In this document: piece after piece, positions 24,878-31,636 of the stretch
Layout: each line of letters starts with the position of its first letter
Position numbering within the stretch: the first letter of the stretch is position 1
Source: Desulfomonile tiedjei
GTDB lineage: Bacteria; Desulfobacterota; Desulfomonilia; Desulfomonilales; Desulfomonilaceae
Assembly: GCA_016218715.1 (NCBI GenBank)
Contig: JACRDG010000121.1
Location: forward strand, 62,001 to 126,000
Reading direction: 5' to 3'
Length of the DNA stretch: 64,000 nucleotides
Program-made: the position numbers and the translations under genes
The notes under the pieces: model-generated
The model's input: the letters and a program-made list of their open reading frames with translations, nothing else
What the model was told of the DNA's origin: nothing
Databases searched by the model: none

Positions 24878-26026
24878 ATGAAGACCAGACCGATCTATCT
24901 CGACTACAATGGGACCACGCCGCTTGACCCGCATGTCATCTCAGCGATGCGGCCGTACATCGAGGAGGAATTCGGGAATCCCTCCAGCAGCCACTGGTAC
25001 GGCATCGAGCCGAAGCGGGCGGTCATCAAGGCCCGTCGGCAAGTCGCGGACCTGCTCAACTGCACCCCTGACGAGATTGTATTCACCAGCGGCGGGACCG
25101 AGTCCAACAACCACGCGATCCTCGGAGCGGTCTTCGCTTCCGGAAAGACACCGGGGCACGTCGTCACCAGCCAGGTGGAACACCCCGCGGTGCTGGAGGT
25201 CTGCCGGCGGCTGGAACGCTTGGGCCATCAGGTCACGTACGTCCCGGTGGACGGGTCGGGCATGGTCGACCCCGGCGACGTGGAGGCCGCGATACGACCG
25301 CACACTGTCCTGATTACCATCATGCACGCGAACAACGAGGTCGGTACGATTCAGCCGATTCGAGAGATCGCAAGCATCGCCGGGGATAGAGGCATCGTGT
25401 TTCACACGGACGCGGCGCAATCCATCGGCAAGATCCCCACGGATGTGAACGACCTGGGAATGGATCTGCTCTCCGTCGCGGGCCACAAGCTGTACGCGCC
25501 CAAGGGCATCGGAGCGCTGTACCTGCGGAAAGGCATCCAACTCGAGCCGTTCATGCTCGGGGCAAGTCAGGAGGTCGGACGGCGGGCCGGCACCGAGAAC
25601 GTGGCCTGGATTGTCGGCCTCGGAAAGGCCTGCGAGATCGCTCGGGAAAACCTACAGGCCAATATGGCGCACCTGCGTCAGACGAGGGACCTCCTGCACC
25701 AGGGGCTCGGCGCACGGCTCGGGGATATAATGAGGCTCAACGGGCATCGTGAGCAACGGTTGCCCAATACCTTGAGCGTCTCCTTCCGAGGAATCGAGGC
25801 GAACCGGATACTCGAAGAGATCGGGCTGGATGTCGCGGCATCCGCGGGGGCTGCGTGCCATTCGGATCATGTCGAAGTATCGCACGTGCTCCAGGCCATG
25901 AAGGTGCCCCTCGAATGGGCCAAAGGCACGATTCGCCTTTCCACCGGGAGGATGACGACGGTCGATGAGATCGCCCGTGCGACGGAGATCGTGGCCAATG
26001 CGGTGACCGCGCTGGCGAGCCAATAA
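24878..26026 (+). CDS. Cysteine desulfurase (NifS/IscS family)
   Basis: 382 residues of the class V aminotransferase fold. IYLDYNGTTPLDP opens the protein; FTSGGTESNNHAI is the cofactor phosphate region; the PLP lysine lies in SVAGHKLYAPKG near residue 204; the catalytic cysteine is in ASAGAACHSDHVEVSHVL near 328. It removes sulfur (or selenium) from cysteine (or selenocysteine), forming a protein persulfide. It is not next to iscU, nifU or other Fe-S assembly genes. Given two selenoproteins nearby, a part in selenium supply is possible but not shown. The ribosome site is weak (GGGAAACG), and the gene has the candidate structured leader described at 24735-24861. Confidence 0.92.
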   Translation: MKTRPIYLDYNGTTPLDPHVISAMRPYIEEEFGNPSSSHWYGIEPKRAVIKARRQVADLLNCTPDEIVFTSGGTESNNHAILGAVFASGKTPGHVVTSQVEHPAVLEVCRRLERLGHQVTYVPVDGSGMVDPGDVEAAIRPHTVLITIMHANNEVGTIQPIREIASIAGDRGIVFHTDAAQSIGKIPTDVNDLGMDLLSVAGHKLYAPKGIGALYLRKGIQLEPFMLGASQEVGRRAGTENVAWIVGLGKACEIARENLQANMAHLRQTRDLLHQGLGARLGDIMRLNGHREQRLPNTLSVSFRGIEANRILEEIGLDVAASAGAACHSDHVEVSHVLQAMKVPLEWAKGTIRLSTGRMTTVDEIARATEIVANAVTALASQ

Positions 26027-26393: not shown

Positions 26394-28709
26394 TTGCGTC
26401 GTTCACGATCTGGGATGCGAGCTGCACTACTCCTCATCGGCATCGCGGTCGTTACGGTAACTTACCACGCACTCCCCGATTACCGGGAGGCCGCGGCCGA
26501 GCAGCGCCGCGCGGCCGGGACTGTTGTGCTCGACCGTTGGGGCCGCGTCCTTCGCATCTTCCCCGACGCACAGGAACGGTACACCCTGTGGCGTGGGATA
26601 GACGAATTCCCCGAACCGCTGAAGCTCGCGGTCCTCGCGGCCGAAGACAAGCGGTTCCCCTACCACCCCGGTTTTGACCCCATTGCAACGCTGAGGGCGA
26701 TCTACGTCAACCTGCGGGCCTGGAAAACCGTTTCCGGAGCATCGACCATCACCCAGCAGGTGGTGAGATTGATTCAGCCCCGGCCGCGAACTTATCGTTC
26801 CAAGATTGTCGAACTCGTCTCAGGCCTGAAGATGGAATGGCAGCTCTCCAAGGATCAGATCCTGGAGCTGTACCTCAACCTCTCCCCCATGGGTGGGAAC
26901 ATCCGTGGTGCGGCGCTGGCAGCGAAGATCTATTTCGACAAGGACGTCAGGCACGTGAATCTCGCTGAAGCGGGGGTGCTGGCAGCGATCCCTCGCTCCC
27001 CGTCGAGGTTCGATCCGCGGAGACCCGGCGGCAGGGCCCAGGTGCTGAATGAAAAGGACAGCATCCTTCACCGCGCTGTTGAGGAAGGCTGGATCGATCG
27101 GGACTCGCTGAAGATCCTCCTCGGCAGGTCGGTCCAATTCAGAATCACGAAGCTCCCGGTAGGCGCACCCCATTTTGTCGATTTCCTCATGGCCCGAGAA
27201 CCGCTTCCCGGACCGTGGCTCAAAACGACTCTCGATTCGCGCCTGCAGAAATCTCTCGAAGAAATCGTCCGTTCCCACGGTCCGCGGCTGGCTCGGCTAG
27301 GAATCGAACAGGCCGGAGTTCTCGTGGCTGCGGTTGACGGCGACATCCTCGGGATGGTGGGTTCGGTCCGATACGGCCGTCGGGATCAGGGGTTCAACAA
27401 CGCGGTTCTGGCCGAGCGGGGCGCGGGGTCAACCCTGAAACCGTTCCTGTACGCACTGGCACTGGATGAGGGGGCTGAGAGCACCACCGAGATCGCGGAC
27501 ACCTTCCGTGGCTACTGGACGCCTCAGGGTGACTATTTGCCACTCAATGCGGACAGACGGTCGTACGGGCCGGTGAACGTGCAGATCGCTCTAGGGAACT
27601 CCCTGAACATCTCCGCGGTGAAGGTGATGCAGCAGATCGGCTTGACCGATTTCTACCAATTGCTGACAAAGCTCGAAGTCCTGTCCAAGGGCGCGATGCC
27701 GGCCGATCACTACGGGCTGGGGCTCGCCATCGGCAACGTTGAGGTGAGTCTGTACCGGCTCGTGCAGGCGTATGGCGCTTTGGCGAGGAAAGGCCTGTAT
27801 GCGCCGCTTCGGAGCCTCGTGGGCGACAGAGCCACAGAGAGCAGGATCTTTACCGAAGAGACTGCCTATGTGATAACCCACATCCTCTCAGACCCATCGG
27901 CAAGACTGCTCACGTTCGGAAACCCTTCATACCTCGATTTCGGATTTCCCGTGGCTGTCAAGACGGGCACCAGCAGCAACTTCCGTGACTGTTGGCTCAT
28001 CGGGTACACCCCTTCCCATGTCATCGGAGTGTGGGCCGGGAATTTCAGCGGACGCCCCAGCAACGGGGTCGCGGGGTCGGTCGCGTGCGGTCCGATCGTC
28101 CATGACATCATACAGCGCCTTTACCAGAGTGGGCCGCCCCCGAACGTCAGGAAGCCGGTCGGGTTGCGTGAAGCACTCGTCTGCTCCATGTCGGGTAAGC
28201 GTGCCACCGCGCTGTGCCCGTATTCCACGCTGGCGTTCCTGAACAGGACTCACGGCGAACGGGTCGGGGAGTGCGATTTGCCCCATGATGGCAGCGCGCA
28301 CCATTACCTCGGCCCGGCATACGCGCAATGGATCGACCGCCGCGAAGCGCTTCAGGGCCCAAGCCGATTTCGGCTCATGAATCCGCGGGCCAGGATTTCC
28401 GACGAGAAGCGTAACTTACCTGACATATTGAGCAACCCGCTGCCTGTACGCCAATCTGTCCCCGTCGAAATAGTGAGCCCACATGAATCCGACCGGTTTG
28501 TGCTCTCCCCGCATCACCCCAACCGGATTCTGTTCAGAGCAGTTCCGGGCACGGTCGTGGACTACCTGGTCTGGCTCGTGGACGGAATCGAGATAGGAAA
28601 GACCCCGCCACCTTACGAGTTGTTCTGGGAGGCGGTTCGCGGAACCCATGAGGTCCACGCGGTCACCCCCAACGGGCAGGCCGCGCGGGTAACGATCCAT
28701 GTCGAGTGA
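26394..28709 (+). CDS. pbpC: Penicillin-binding protein 1C (transglycosylase/transpeptidase)
   Basis: 771 residues. An N-terminal membrane anchor (AALLLIGIAVVTVTYHAL) is followed by a GT51 domain with the catalytic Glu in LAAEDKRFPYHPG and GASTITQQVVRL. The transpeptidase domain has the active Ser in GSTLKPF near residue 345, SLN and KTGTSSNFRD near 523. A C-terminal BiPBP_C-type domain (about 695-771) completes the PBP1C architecture. It acts in the periplasm, polymerising and possibly cross-linking glycan. AAAGGGG seven bases before a TTG at 26394 is a far better start than the ATG at 26367, which has no ribosome site. The 3' end overlaps the next gene by 11 bp, so the two are probably co-translated. 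Confidence 0.93.
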   Translation: MRRSRSGMRAALLLIGIAVVTVTYHALPDYREAAAEQRRAAGTVVLDRWGRVLRIFPDAQERYTLWRGIDEFPEPLKLAVLAAEDKRFPYHPGFDPIATLRAIYVNLRAWKTVSGASTITQQVVRLIQPRPRTYRSKIVELVSGLKMEWQLSKDQILELYLNLSPMGGNIRGAALAAKIYFDKDVRHVNLAEAGVLAAIPRSPSRFDPRRPGGRAQVLNEKDSILHRAVEEGWIDRDSLKILLGRSVQFRITKLPVGAPHFVDFLMAREPLPGPWLKTTLDSRLQKSLEEIVRSHGPRLARLGIEQAGVLVAAVDGDILGMVGSVRYGRRDQGFNNAVLAERGAGSTLKPFLYALALDEGAESTTEIADTFRGYWTPQGDYLPLNADRRSYGPVNVQIALGNSLNISAVKVMQQIGLTDFYQLLTKLEVLSKGAMPADHYGLGLAIGNVEVSLYRLVQAYGALARKGLYAPLRSLVGDRATESRIFTEETAYVITHILSDPSARLLTFGNPSYLDFGFPVAVKTGTSSNFRDCWLIGYTPSHVIGVWAGNFSGRPSNGVAGSVACGPIVHDIIQRLYQSGPPPNVRKPVGLREALVCSMSGKRATALCPYSTLAFLNRTHGERVGECDLPHDGSAHHYLGPAYAQWIDRREALQGPSRFRLMNPRARISDEKRNLPDILSNPLPVRQSVPVEIVSPHESDRFVLSPHHPNRILFRAVPGTVVDYLVWLVDGIEIGKTPPPYELFWEAVRGTHEVHAVTPNGQAARVTIHVE

Positions 28710-30327
28710 TCCCCGGCCCAACGGCACCTTGGAAGAAACGTTCCGGGGATTCTTCGGCCGTTACTCCCTCGATCTGGCCTGCGCGGTATGGATCGCCATA
28801 ATCTGGCTTTGGAAACCGGCTATCCTTACACTCACCGTGGACGATTCCTTCTACTACTTGAAGACCGCGCTGAATGTGGCCGCGGGTCACGGAACCACCT
28901 TCGACCAGATCAATCCGACGACTGGGTTCCATCCGCTGTGGTTGCTGGCACTGGTGCCAGTGGCCTGGATCTTTGGTGACGCGTCGGCGCTCCTGGTCAA
29001 GGTGGTTCTCACGCTCCAGGTGGCGCTGGTCTACAGCGGGACTCGCTGTCTGAGCCGCGTCGAGGTCTCAGGCGGGAGATACCTCACCTCCGTTTTTGCG
29101 ATTCTGCTCCTCAATTTCTACTTCGCAAAGGTCTTCATCAACGGCCAGGAATCCGCTCTCGAGTATGCACTCTTGTGCTGGTCACTCGTGTACTGGTGGA
29201 AGCGCAGCGTTTCTCCCGAAGACCACCGCTTCGCGTCAGCGGCGATCCTCGGGCTGTTGGCAGGACTCACGGTCCTGGCGCGGCTGGAAGCTATTTTCTT
29301 TGCGTGGGCTCTGCTGAGTGTGCCGCTGCTGTGGCCTCGGAGAGGGAGCGAAGAGGAGAGTCTACGCCGACGGCTCCCGGATTTCTTCGTGGCAGCGGGC
29401 ACGCTCTCCGCGGTGCTCATCCCCTATGTGGTATGGAACTTACACTTCCACGGCCACCTTATCCCGGTGAGTGCGGCGGTCAAGTACCGCGAACCTTCAA
29501 CCAGGATGCTCGGAGCGATCCTGCTCCTGGCCGCGGTTGCCACCCCGCTCTGCGTTGTCGCCTGCCGGCGGATGGAAGCCGCGTGGGTCTCGATTCCTCG
29601 CAGGGTATTTGACCGCGTGCGGTTTCTCCTGCCCCTGGGTTGCCACGTGATGCTCGTGACCTTGCTGGAGGCCACGTTTCTCGGGAAGATCGCCCCGGCA
29701 ATCTGGTATTTTCCTCCGCACCTGTTGCTGGTCGCTCTCATAGTGAGTATCGCGTGGGCACAGGCGCCGCAGCGGCGAGCGGCGGTTGCGGCCGCGTGGA
29801 TCTCCTTGGCCGCGGTCCTCGCTTTTGCCGGCGTCACGTGGCTGTACCGGCTCGACCCCCTGTCATACGAAGCGTACATGCAAGCGAAACGCCGCGGGGA
29901 CTGGCTGCGGCACAACACTGCGGAAGACGCTTTGGCCGCTGGTTGGGATTGCGGCATCACCGCCTTTTTCTCGCATCGACGTTTCATCAACCTGGACGGG
30001 CTCATCTCTTCCTGGGAGTACAAGAAACATTACTTGGACAAGAATCAGACGGGGCGGTTCATCACCGAGGTTCATCCGGTCGAGTACATCGCGCAGCACT
30101 TCCCCCCGGAGTTCCTCCGTTACGGCGGTCGATTGGGAGGACTGGACCTCTTCAAACTCTCGGTAGTCTATGCGGAGGTTGGTGACGTTCGCCTGATGAA
30201 GCACCCGCTAAGAGTCCGCAAGCTGTATTCAGTGGTTCTGAGCCGAACACCCCGCACGGGGGCCGTCACGTTCGACGAATTGGCCTCCAAAGAAGTTCCC
30301 TTTCGCGGGACTTCCGTACCGGAATAA
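28699..30327 (+). CDS. GT-C-type polytopic membrane glycosyltransferase-like protein
   Basis: 542 residues with about ten hydrophobic segments (for example LACAVWIAIIWLWKPAILTL, SVFAILLLNFYFAKVF and LLLVALIVSIAWA). The first periplasmic loop carries LTVDDSFYYLKTALNVAAG, an Asp-Asp motif typical of GT-C enzymes that use polyprenyl-phosphate sugars, followed by NPTTGFHPLW, also typical. A C-terminal soluble part holds ALAAGWDCGITAFFSHR. It would transfer a sugar to an envelope glycan, lipid or protein on the periplasmic side. Translation probably depends on pbpC, whose end it overlaps. Donor and acceptor are unknown. Confidence 0.75.
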   Translation: MSSDPRPNGTLEETFRGFFGRYSLDLACAVWIAIIWLWKPAILTLTVDDSFYYLKTALNVAAGHGTTFDQINPTTGFHPLWLLALVPVAWIFGDASALLVKVVLTLQVALVYSGTRCLSRVEVSGGRYLTSVFAILLLNFYFAKVFINGQESALEYALLCWSLVYWWKRSVSPEDHRFASAAILGLLAGLTVLARLEAIFFAWALLSVPLLWPRRGSEEESLRRRLPDFFVAAGTLSAVLIPYVVWNLHFHGHLIPVSAAVKYREPSTRMLGAILLLAAVATPLCVVACRRMEAAWVSIPRRVFDRVRFLLPLGCHVMLVTLLEATFLGKIAPAIWYFPPHLLLVALIVSIAWAQAPQRRAAVAAAWISLAAVLAFAGVTWLYRLDPLSYEAYMQAKRRGDWLRHNTAEDALAAGWDCGITAFFSHRRFINLDGLISSWEYKKHYLDKNQTGRFITEVHPVEYIAQHFPPEFLRYGGRLGGLDLFKLSVVYAEVGDVRLMKHPLRVRKLYSVVLSRTPRTGAVTFDELASKEVPFRGTSVPE

Positions 30328-30434
30328 TGCCACCGAAGTTGAGGCCGTTCCCAAGTGGAGATTCCTGACGGTATATGCTAATTCTGGGAACGCGAAGTCT
30401 CATGAGTTCGTTCTAGCCAAGGAGTAACAGGGCC

Positions 30435-31274
30435 ATGTTCGAGAAACTGAAGAAGGTTCTGACACTCGCGGAGGGGATCGATCCGGACCAACTCCGGGAG
30501 TACATCGCGACCCACGCGGAAGGAACGTACACGCTCCTGGACGTCCGGCAGCCCAAGGAATACGAGAAAGAGCACATTCCCGGCTCCACGCTCGTTCCGC
30601 TCCCGCGGTTGACCGATTCCCTCGACCGATTGGACCCGACAAAGCCTGTGATCGTCTATTGAGCGATCGGCGGGCGGAGCCGCGTGGCGGCTCAAATGCT
30701 TTCGGGATACGGCTTCGAGAAGATCTACAACCTCAAAGGTGGAATCATGGCGTGGAACGGCCTGGTCGCGGAAGGGCCGCAAGAGCTGCATTTGGAGCTG
30801 ATACGCGGGGACGAGACACCGGCGGAGATCCTCAAGATGGCGTACGGCATGGAGAAGAGCCTCGGCGACTTCTACCGCACCGTGGCGACGAGGACTCCGG
30901 ATCGGGAACTGGCCGCGCTTGTAAAGACCCTCGCCTCGGTCGAGGATAAGCATATGGAATATCTCCTGGAGATCGGCAAGGAACTCGATCCTGGCGGGTT
31001 CGATAGGGAAGCTGCGGACGCGGAAGCCCTCGCTTCGGCTATGGAAGGGGGCTTCAGGGGAGATGAGCTGACTAAGAACAACGAACGGCTCCTGGAGAGC
31101 GTTGACGCCATGCTGGATCTCTCCATGATGCTGGAGACCCAGGCCCTGGATCTGTACATGCGTTTCGCAGGAAAGAGCCAAGACGAAGCGGCCAGAAAGA
31201 TTCTCTTCCGCATTGCCGATGAAGAGAAGACCCACCTGGCTGCCTTGGGGAAACTCCGGGACGAGCGAGCGTGA
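30435..31274 (+). CDS. Rhodanese-ferritin-like fusion selenoprotein (in-frame UGA = Sec76)
   Basis: 279 residues if the TGA at 30660-30662 is read as selenocysteine. Residues 1-115 are a rhodanese domain: TLLDVRQPKEYEKEHIPGS, then PVIVY-Sec76-AIGGRSRVAAQML, where Sec stands exactly at the catalytic cysteine of the CxxGxR loop, and FEKIYNLKGGIMAWNG ends the domain. Residues about 125-275 are a ferritin-like/rubrerythrin-type four-helix domain with Glu140, Glu170-x-x-His173, Glu234 and Glu264-x-x-His267 placed as diiron ligands. A SECIS-like hairpin follows the UGA. AAGGAG lies ten bases before the ATG. Ordinary gene calling would split it into a 75-residue fragment and a false downstream gene starting at 30684. 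Probable cytoplasmic sulfur or selenium transfer coupled to peroxide or oxygen chemistry is inference. Confidence 0.92.
30677..30693 (+). promoter_or_regulatory. Predicted bacterial SECIS hairpin of the rhodanese-ferritin-like gene
   Basis: GAGCCGC (30677-30683) and GCGGCTC (30687-30693) form a perfect 7-bp stem around the loop GTG. The stem starts 14 nt and the loop 21 nt after the UGA, nearly the same geometry as the hairpin at 1162-1180. It is the expected position for SelB recognition. Confidence 0.8.
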
Positions 31275-31393: not shown

Positions 31394-31636
31394 ATGGAAC
31401 AGTTTGAGTACGAGATTACGACGCATAGTGCCGAGTCTTTTGCCCGGGTGGTATATTTCTGCTCTGATGCCGGGGATTGCAAACTCGAAGAAATCCCCTC
31501 GCAGGAACCGGCGATCCTGGCGGATATCCTCAACGAACGGGGCTTGAACGGGTGGGAATTGGTCCAAATGGTATTCCGCCAAGAGGGCGTTCTGGCCTGC
31601 TGGAAACGCAGATTGATTTATACGGATGGAGTGTAG
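31394..31636 (+). CDS. Small DUF4177-like protein (80 aa)
   Basis: Compact 80-residue protein with AAGGAG before its ATG. The C-terminal stretch LNERGLNGWELVQMVFRQEG, ending ACWKRRL, resembles DUF4177-type small domains (usually LN-G-GWELV followed by a basic end). No catalytic motif is apparent. It has three cysteines (two in FCSDAGDC). It lies between the selenoprotein gene and the copper genes, with 119 and 65 nt gaps, and may be expressed with either. Function unknown. Confidence 0.72.
   Translation: MEQFEYEITTHSAESFARVVYFCSDAGDCKLEEIPSQEPAILADILNERGLNGWELVQMVFRQEGVLACWKRRLIYTDGV

Follow-up and report, generated by a model that had tools for sequence, protein, structure and literature searches.

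A predicted selenocysteine rhodanese joined to a ferritin-like diiron-carboxylate domain in Desulfobacterota

Does an in-frame TGA at the catalytic position of a rhodanese domain encode selenocysteine (Sec), and what might such a residue do in a protein chain that continues into a ferritin-like domain? The locus that raises this question lies in a window, the whole stretch of 64,000 nucleotides analysed here, which is part of contig C86 of a 5.55-Mb assembly. On the forward strand the gene extends from an ATG at 30435 to a TGA stop at 31272–31274 (whole gene 30435–31274), with a ribosome-binding-site-like AAGGAG (30419–30424) read ten bases before the ATG. Its sequence contains one further in-frame TGA, codon 76 (30660–30662), and reading this codon as Sec gives a protein of 279 residues. 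The sequence-only reading had placed this TGA at the catalytic cysteine of a rhodanese domain that is followed by a ferritin-like domain with two ExxH pairs; its coordinates were right, and both Pfam and the conserved ligands described below agree with this domain order. Rhodanese (PF00581) covers residues 27–108 (30513–30758) with 75.4 bits against a cut-off of 22.2, with PDB rhodaneses among the matches, and Rubrerythrin (PF02915) covers residues 131–274 (30825–31256) with 37.8 bits against a cut-off of 22.8. The rhodanese loop of the window protein reads U-A-I-G-G-R (UxxGxR). All 25 NCBIfam families listed for the fusion protein scored below their own cut-offs, and we rejected assignments to the tRNA 2-selenouridine synthase MnmH (best equivalog score 37.3 bits, cut-off 241), the rhodanese-related (seleno)protein NF041203 (31.3 bits, cut-off 115) and TsoB NF045694 (15.6 bits, cut-off 805). 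As no signal peptide was apparent by eye, the fusion protein is probably cytoplasmic.

The fusion had a match in 12 of the 18 genomes of the window's order (E 1e-25) and in 108 of the 395 sampled genomes of the phylum (E 1e-22), so homologues that join the two domains do exist; the 108 genomes include partial matches in G022, G215, G238 and G294, and matches to the rhodanese part only in G046 and G400. The 108 loci that were read (100 fetched loci, L001 and L034–L040) were reduced to 107 when L034 was dropped as a duplicate of L107. These homologues represent most of the hits, and 21 further listed places were left out of the counts (G022 twice, G046, the second copy in G105, G122, G187, G202, G203, G215, G238, G256, G293, G294, G326, G331, the second copy in G357, G360, G366, G379, G380 and G400); among these places, G046, G215 and G238 each have one TGA inside and the others have none. 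In the 107 distinct Desulfobacterota homologues, which have similar lengths (from 266 residues) and the same domain order, codon 76 is TGA in 41, TGC in 53 and TGT in 13. No other codon occurs, and the alignment column across Desulfobacterota thus holds only Sec or Cys codons. The fusion itself stands; it is commoner than the wording of the sequence-only reading suggested, and Cys copies (66) outnumber Sec copies (41) in the sample.

The frame through both domains is open in all 107 homologues apart from L113 and L141, which each have one additional stop. L113 has a second in-frame TGA at codon 172, is missing E170 and H173, and looks decayed or misassembled, whilst L141, a Cys form, has an internal TAG at codon 243. 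We set aside a reading of these extra stops as Sec or Pyl and take them as decay or error. A GTG at 30684, a possible start of a separate downstream gene, sits in the loop of the hairpin discussed below; as the 66 Cys relatives carry both domains in one frame, the second part is not a separate gene. In a contig search, 7 of 42 loci (L034–L040) had the two domains joined, all with Desulfobacterota names; as this search requires exact peptides, it does not establish absence outside Desulfobacterota. In the plasmid collection, no record held 80% of the fusion protein in one place.

The genome of the window encodes SelB, SelD and tRNA-Sec, the last also found by ARAGORN, and thus has the machinery for Sec decoding. 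Its SelD gene (L203, G000 C85:75991–76908) itself has an in-frame TGA and is a selenoprotein gene. SelB was found in all 38 Sec-form genomes examined and in 59 of 61 Cys-form genomes, counts that leave out six loci of named records, three with Sec and three with Cys. It was not found in two Cys-form genomes, the 62%-complete G095 and the 98%-complete G304 (no match at E 1e-80). G304 (L191) belongs to the same genus, g204, as G377 (L184), which has a Sec form together with SelB; on their sequences, these two genomes are a natural pair for the loss of Sec. In a quick tree of the 107 homologues, made with column 76 masked, the best topology had 19 changes between Sec and Cys, at least 9 of them on well supported branches, compared with about 33 for shuffled labels.

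A perfect 7-bp hairpin 14 bases after the UGA had also been noted in the sequence-only reading. This SECIS-like hairpin (30677–30693) is present, with arms at 30677–30683 and 30687–30693 around a three-base loop, GUG, at 30684–30686, and it was assessed by sequence reading, folding and stem comparison. An Rfam scan of the window gave nothing above gathering scores. Taken alone, the stability of the hairpin is not unusual (z 0.42 for a 61-base stretch in single-sequence folding), and its weight comes from the fact that such a stem is kept in the Sec forms of relatives. A stem was found at the SECIS position in 40 of the 41 Sec forms versus 13 of the 66 Cys forms; the p-value of this comparison (Fisher 7e-17) is not corrected for kinship and is optimistic, as the limits of the test (5' arm start 13–19, loop 3–8, apical loop start 20–25 and at least 5 non-GU pairs) were set after viewing the Sec hairpins. 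The Sec stems have at least 5 Watson–Crick pairs and an apical loop that starts at +20 to +25, and a G lies within the first three loop bases in 40 of 40. Among 9 tree-independent pairs on well supported branches, the presence of the hairpin agreed with Sec in 5.7, disagreed in 0.2 and made no difference in 3.1 (median sign-test p 0.06). The best hairpin energies, compared with synonymous shuffles, did not differ between the Sec and Cys groups, both of which were more stable than the shuffles. By eye, the stems occur in two registers, CGG-AGC with GCG-GCT-C or CGC-AGC with GCT-GC, both of which encode R-S-R-x-A-A, and the codon for Ser82 is AGC in all 41 Sec forms versus 43 of the 66 Cys forms. 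An apparent relic hairpin occurs in some Cys forms (L136, L107). L136 has the Cys codon TGT and, at +15 to +32 counted from the start of codon 76, an intact SECIS-like stem; this locus is perhaps a recent Sec-to-Cys change. Judged from these comparisons, the gene in the window is almost certainly a genuine selenoprotein gene, in which a Sec rhodanese is joined to a diiron-carboxylate domain.

In the rhodanese part, D36, V37, R38, E42, G50, P55, G79, R81, G102 and G103 are invariant in the 107 homologues. The ferritin-like part contains a set of four Glu and two His, which would form a putative metal site: E140 (30852–30854, 99% conserved), the first ExxH pair E170 and H173 (30942–30953, 97% and 99%), E234 (31134–31136, 100%) and the second ExxH pair E264 and H267 (31224–31235, both 100%). 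All six putative diiron ligands are present in 103 of the 107 homologues, the exceptions being L113, L123, L125 and L193. Between the helix pairs lies an EGG motif whose glutamate, E204 (31044–31046), is also invariant (107/107), and we assign no role to it. A Tyr follows seven residues past E140 (Y147, in 103 of 107) and past E234 (Y241, in 106 of 107), a placement reminiscent of rubrerythrin and bacterioferritin. Outside column 76, every column has Cys in fewer than 11 of the 107 rows; 50 of the proteins have some other Cys, and the window protein has none beyond position 76. With no second conserved Cys, electrons would probably have to be supplied by sulfur or by an external reductant. As the Pfam scan found no rubredoxin domain and position 76 is the sole Cys position of the window protein, we also rejected the assignment of the protein as a rubrerythrin in the strict sense.

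A structure model built from 8 sequences (pLDDT 80.3, pTM 0.59) contains both folds, including the helices of the ferritin part, and the relative orientation of the two domains in it is uncertain. The Foldseek matches listed are rhodaneses, and they include persulfide reductases and a persulfide dioxygenase fusion. VIA-align matched ferritin-like chains over residues 126–279 with Z 13–14, a level that unrelated helical bundles can also reach. A profile built from 33 sequences of the ferritin part had as its first match TM1526 (1vjx), a putative diiron-carboxylate protein (E 3.2e-16). Like the rubrerythrin and ferritin-like diiron proteins (PF02915; TM1526 1vjx), the fusion has a four-helix domain with two ExxH motifs and two further Glu; unlike rubrerythrin, it lacks a rubredoxin domain and has its diiron domain placed behind a rhodanese.

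Recurring neighbours of the fusion were identified by clustering ORFs around the 107 loci, with one member of each cluster annotated; the resulting counts are lower bounds, as contig ends lie less than 5 kb from many loci. A pyridine nucleotide-disulfide flavoprotein adjoins the fusion in 24 of the 107 loci, always on the same strand (24/24). Of these copies, 16 lie upstream and 8 downstream of the fusion, and 16 of the 24 gaps measure −4 to 48 bases, those on the downstream side being approximate. Among the 24 neighbours, only that of L160 was scanned directly, 20 were confirmed by the position of a match to TIGR03169 ('Nterm_to_SelD'), and those in L036, L038, L039 and L182 were recognised by cluster and motif. 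The neighbour in L133 was rejected as the same flavoprotein; the GGGHAH-type motif is absent from it, and it is a different pyridine-nucleotide oxidoreductase. In L182 the upstream flavoprotein has a broken frame, and its C-terminal part goes on in another frame.

The flavoprotein is found in 44 of the 395 phylum genomes, 34 of the 108 with a fusion match versus 10 of the other 287 (Fisher 2e-13, not corrected for kinship), and it stands side by side with the fusion in 22 of the 34 phylum genomes that have both. When 80 of the 99 fusion genomes at hand were searched (E 1e-40), it was present in 32, with one copy each, adjacent to the fusion in 20 and elsewhere in 12. The genome of the window has its flavoprotein on contig C87, away from the fusion; the partner was invisible to the sequence-only reading because it is on another contig. 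A flavoprotein domain fused to SelD has been described (PMC4561486). In 31 of the 32 fusion genomes where it occurs, the partner aligns over the full TIGR03169 profile with 244–299 bits (271.5 bits over the full length for L160), but falls below the curated cut-off of 310 bits, and no SelD fusion occurs in the 24 adjacent loci (frames of 365–499 residues in 22; L182 is broken, and the 805-residue frame in L186 ends with the flavoprotein domain). In G063, which is not among the genomes with a listed match to the fusion, a TIGR03169-like match (C102:46499–47587) has an in-frame TGA.

Other genes recur less often beside the fusion. In L038, L039 and L165, an ArsC-like UxxC protein (U-T/K-S-C) is encoded between the flavoprotein and the fusion, upstream of the latter, and its stop overlaps the start of the fusion. 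With its TGA read as Cys, the L039 protein scores 134.5 bits against the NF041106 cut-off of 85. In L165 the ArsC-like gene keeps its TGA while the rhodanese has Cys. A Fur-family gene comes next in these three operons (by cluster, and by Pfam for L165 only). In L038 and L165 it is followed, by eye, by rubrerythrin-like and peroxiredoxin-like genes, and Fur-family and peroxiredoxin-like genes also lie near the fusion in L153 (by cluster or eye). A SagB-type nitroreductase/dehydrogenase adjoins the fusion in 11 loci, of which nine come from the window's own family, and one of its copies is a fragment; a membrane protein of fatty-acid-hydroxylase type adjoins the fusion in 10. In the window itself, the fusion has as neighbours a protein without a family match (28699–30327) and CopZ-like and CopA-like genes; CopZ/CopA recur near the fusion in the window's own family. 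A small DUF4177-like gene (31394–31636; FEYxIxxH...VYFCS), just below the Pfam cut-off, also lies in the window, and a DUF4177-like protein is found near the fusion in L026, L105, L158 and L035 as well.

Tentatively, we favour a reading of the fusion as an oxidative or sulfur-stress reductase, in which electrons from the flavoprotein would reach the Sec/Cys rhodanese and then the diiron site. Sulfane sulfur or an oxidised chalcogen would be bound by the Sec (or Cys), NAD(P)H electrons would reach the Sec/Cys chalcogenide in trans from the flavoprotein, and the diiron site would reduce peroxide or traces of oxygen, or couple to persulfide turnover. The sequence-only reading had suggested that Sec could bear a perselenide or persulfide and that peroxide or oxygen could be reduced at the diiron site. 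The flavoprotein stands side by side with the fusion in many genomes, and known persulfide reductases, which rank among the best structural matches, are likewise built from a rhodanese and a flavoprotein. The near-complete conservation of the six diiron ligands and the nearest solved relative, a putative diiron-carboxylate protein, are consistent with the final step, and stress genes lie nearby in L038, L165 and L153. However, stress genes occur near the fusion in few lineages, as counts without a background rate, and fewer than half of the fusion genomes searched (32/80) have the flavoprotein, 12 of them in a non-adjacent position. The window's own family has other recurrent neighbours (the SagB-type dehydrogenase and CopZ/CopA), and its copy may rely on the flavoprotein encoded elsewhere in the genome. 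Without a rubredoxin domain or a second conserved Cys, the electron path is also unclear. The specific route from NAD(P)H through the SelD-family-related flavoprotein to the Sec/Cys rhodanese and the diiron site of the same chain, with the ArsC-like UxxC protein as a relay in some operons, is possible but doubtful.

An alternative, which we consider unlikely, is that the protein hands selenium (as perselenide) or sulfur on to an acceptor such as SelD, with the ferritin-like domain serving for binding or oligomerisation. A rhodanese perselenide is a substrate of SelD, and the flavoprotein neighbour resembles a family with SelD-fused members. SelB is also more frequent in genomes with a fusion match (106/108) than in those without (244/287; Fisher 6e-5, not corrected for kinship). 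On the other hand, these genomes add up to 350 of 395 in the phylum with SelB, and most Sec users there thus do without the fusion; two genomes with the Cys form have no SelB match, one of them only 62% complete. A Sec nucleophile would itself need selenium in order to deliver selenium, and the invariant diiron ligands favour redox chemistry.

A role in iron-sulfur repair, in which clusters would be rebuilt after oxygen stress with sulfur from the rhodanese and iron from the ferritin-like domain, is distinctly improbable. The domain pair could provide both elements, and a NifS/IscS-like cysteine desulfurase gene (24878–26026; best match TIGR03402, below cut-off) lies 4.4 kb upstream in the window, but two unrelated genes separate it from the fusion, and no gene for iron-sulfur assembly was seen by eye in the 40 largest neighbour clusters, most of them unannotated. 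We give as little credence to an oxygen-using oxidation, in which the diiron site would turn a Sec or Cys persulfide to sulfite as the diiron counterpart of the persulfide dioxygenase–rhodanese fusions (PRF). The hosts of the fusion are mainly anaerobes, which counts against such a reaction, and the flavoprotein neighbour fits reduction better. The iron domain of PRF is of the metallo-beta-lactamase type. PRF (5ve3) shares with our protein the two-function layout of a rhodanese and a non-haem iron domain, and its rhodanese is among the structural matches; here, the iron domain is ferritin-like and the metallo-beta-lactamase dioxygenase domain is absent from the Pfam scan, on which ground we also rejected membership of that fusion family. 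Finally, a single genome could mislead and L113, with its second TGA and lost ligands, looks decayed, but that the TGA in the window is a sequencing error or marks a broken gene is hardly credible given that 41 of 107 homologues have TGA at this codon, 40 of them with a matched hairpin, and that the genome encodes SelB, SelD and tRNA-Sec.

That rhodanese-like selenoproteins exist was already noted in the sequence-only reading, and a 2026 catalogue of prokaryotic selenoproteins indeed lists five such forms (1–5), with Sec in the rhodanese domain; forms 2 and 4 have UxxG, as in the window protein (PMC13188914). The catalogue's table of rhodanese-like selenoproteins names no ferritin-like partner, and its main text, as available, contains no word that begins with ferritin or rubrerythrin (PMC13188914). 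Forms 2 and 4 (MBM9537886.1, MCY3690685.1) might include the fusion. The available part of PMC9312934 likewise contains neither ferritin nor rubrerythrin words, and the fusion is not described in the available parts of PMC2398784, PMC8318568, PMC10599522, PMC5373536, PMC1088965, PMC8346489, PMC2702500, PMC11451228, PMC4561486, PMC1794560, PMC5029168 and PMC7376266. A literature search covering the accessible text of articles, with supplements such as Table S3 of PMC2702500 (Desulfobacterium autotrophicum selenoproteins) outside its scope, did not find a fusion of a rhodanese with a ferritin-like or rubrerythrin domain. The persulfide reductases CoADR-RHD, Npsr and NoxA-3 (3icr, 3nta, 6pfz) likewise combine a rhodanese with a pyridine nucleotide-disulfide flavoprotein, but in the present system the flavoprotein, of a different subfamily, is encoded by its own gene, and the domain joined to the rhodanese is a diiron one. 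What appears to be new is thus the domain setting of the Sec rhodanese, for which we found no description, together with its recurrent flavoprotein partner. As annotation without Sec decoding would cut the gene at residue 75, this architecture may be hidden in databases.

The fusion forms a sizeable selenoprotein family with 41 Sec and 66 Cys natural versions, and the many exchanges between them provide matched pairs with which the advantage of Sec could be examined. The fusion further gives a concrete partner to a flavoprotein family whose members are known to be fused to SelD. If the domain assignments are true, the protein would place selenium beside a diiron site, which to our knowledge is rare. 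If the reductase reading is true as well, a single enzyme would combine the chemistry of selenium with that of a non-haem diiron site in removing peroxide, oxygen or persulfide, and it may act as an oxidative or sulfur-stress reductase in anaerobes that meet oxygen.
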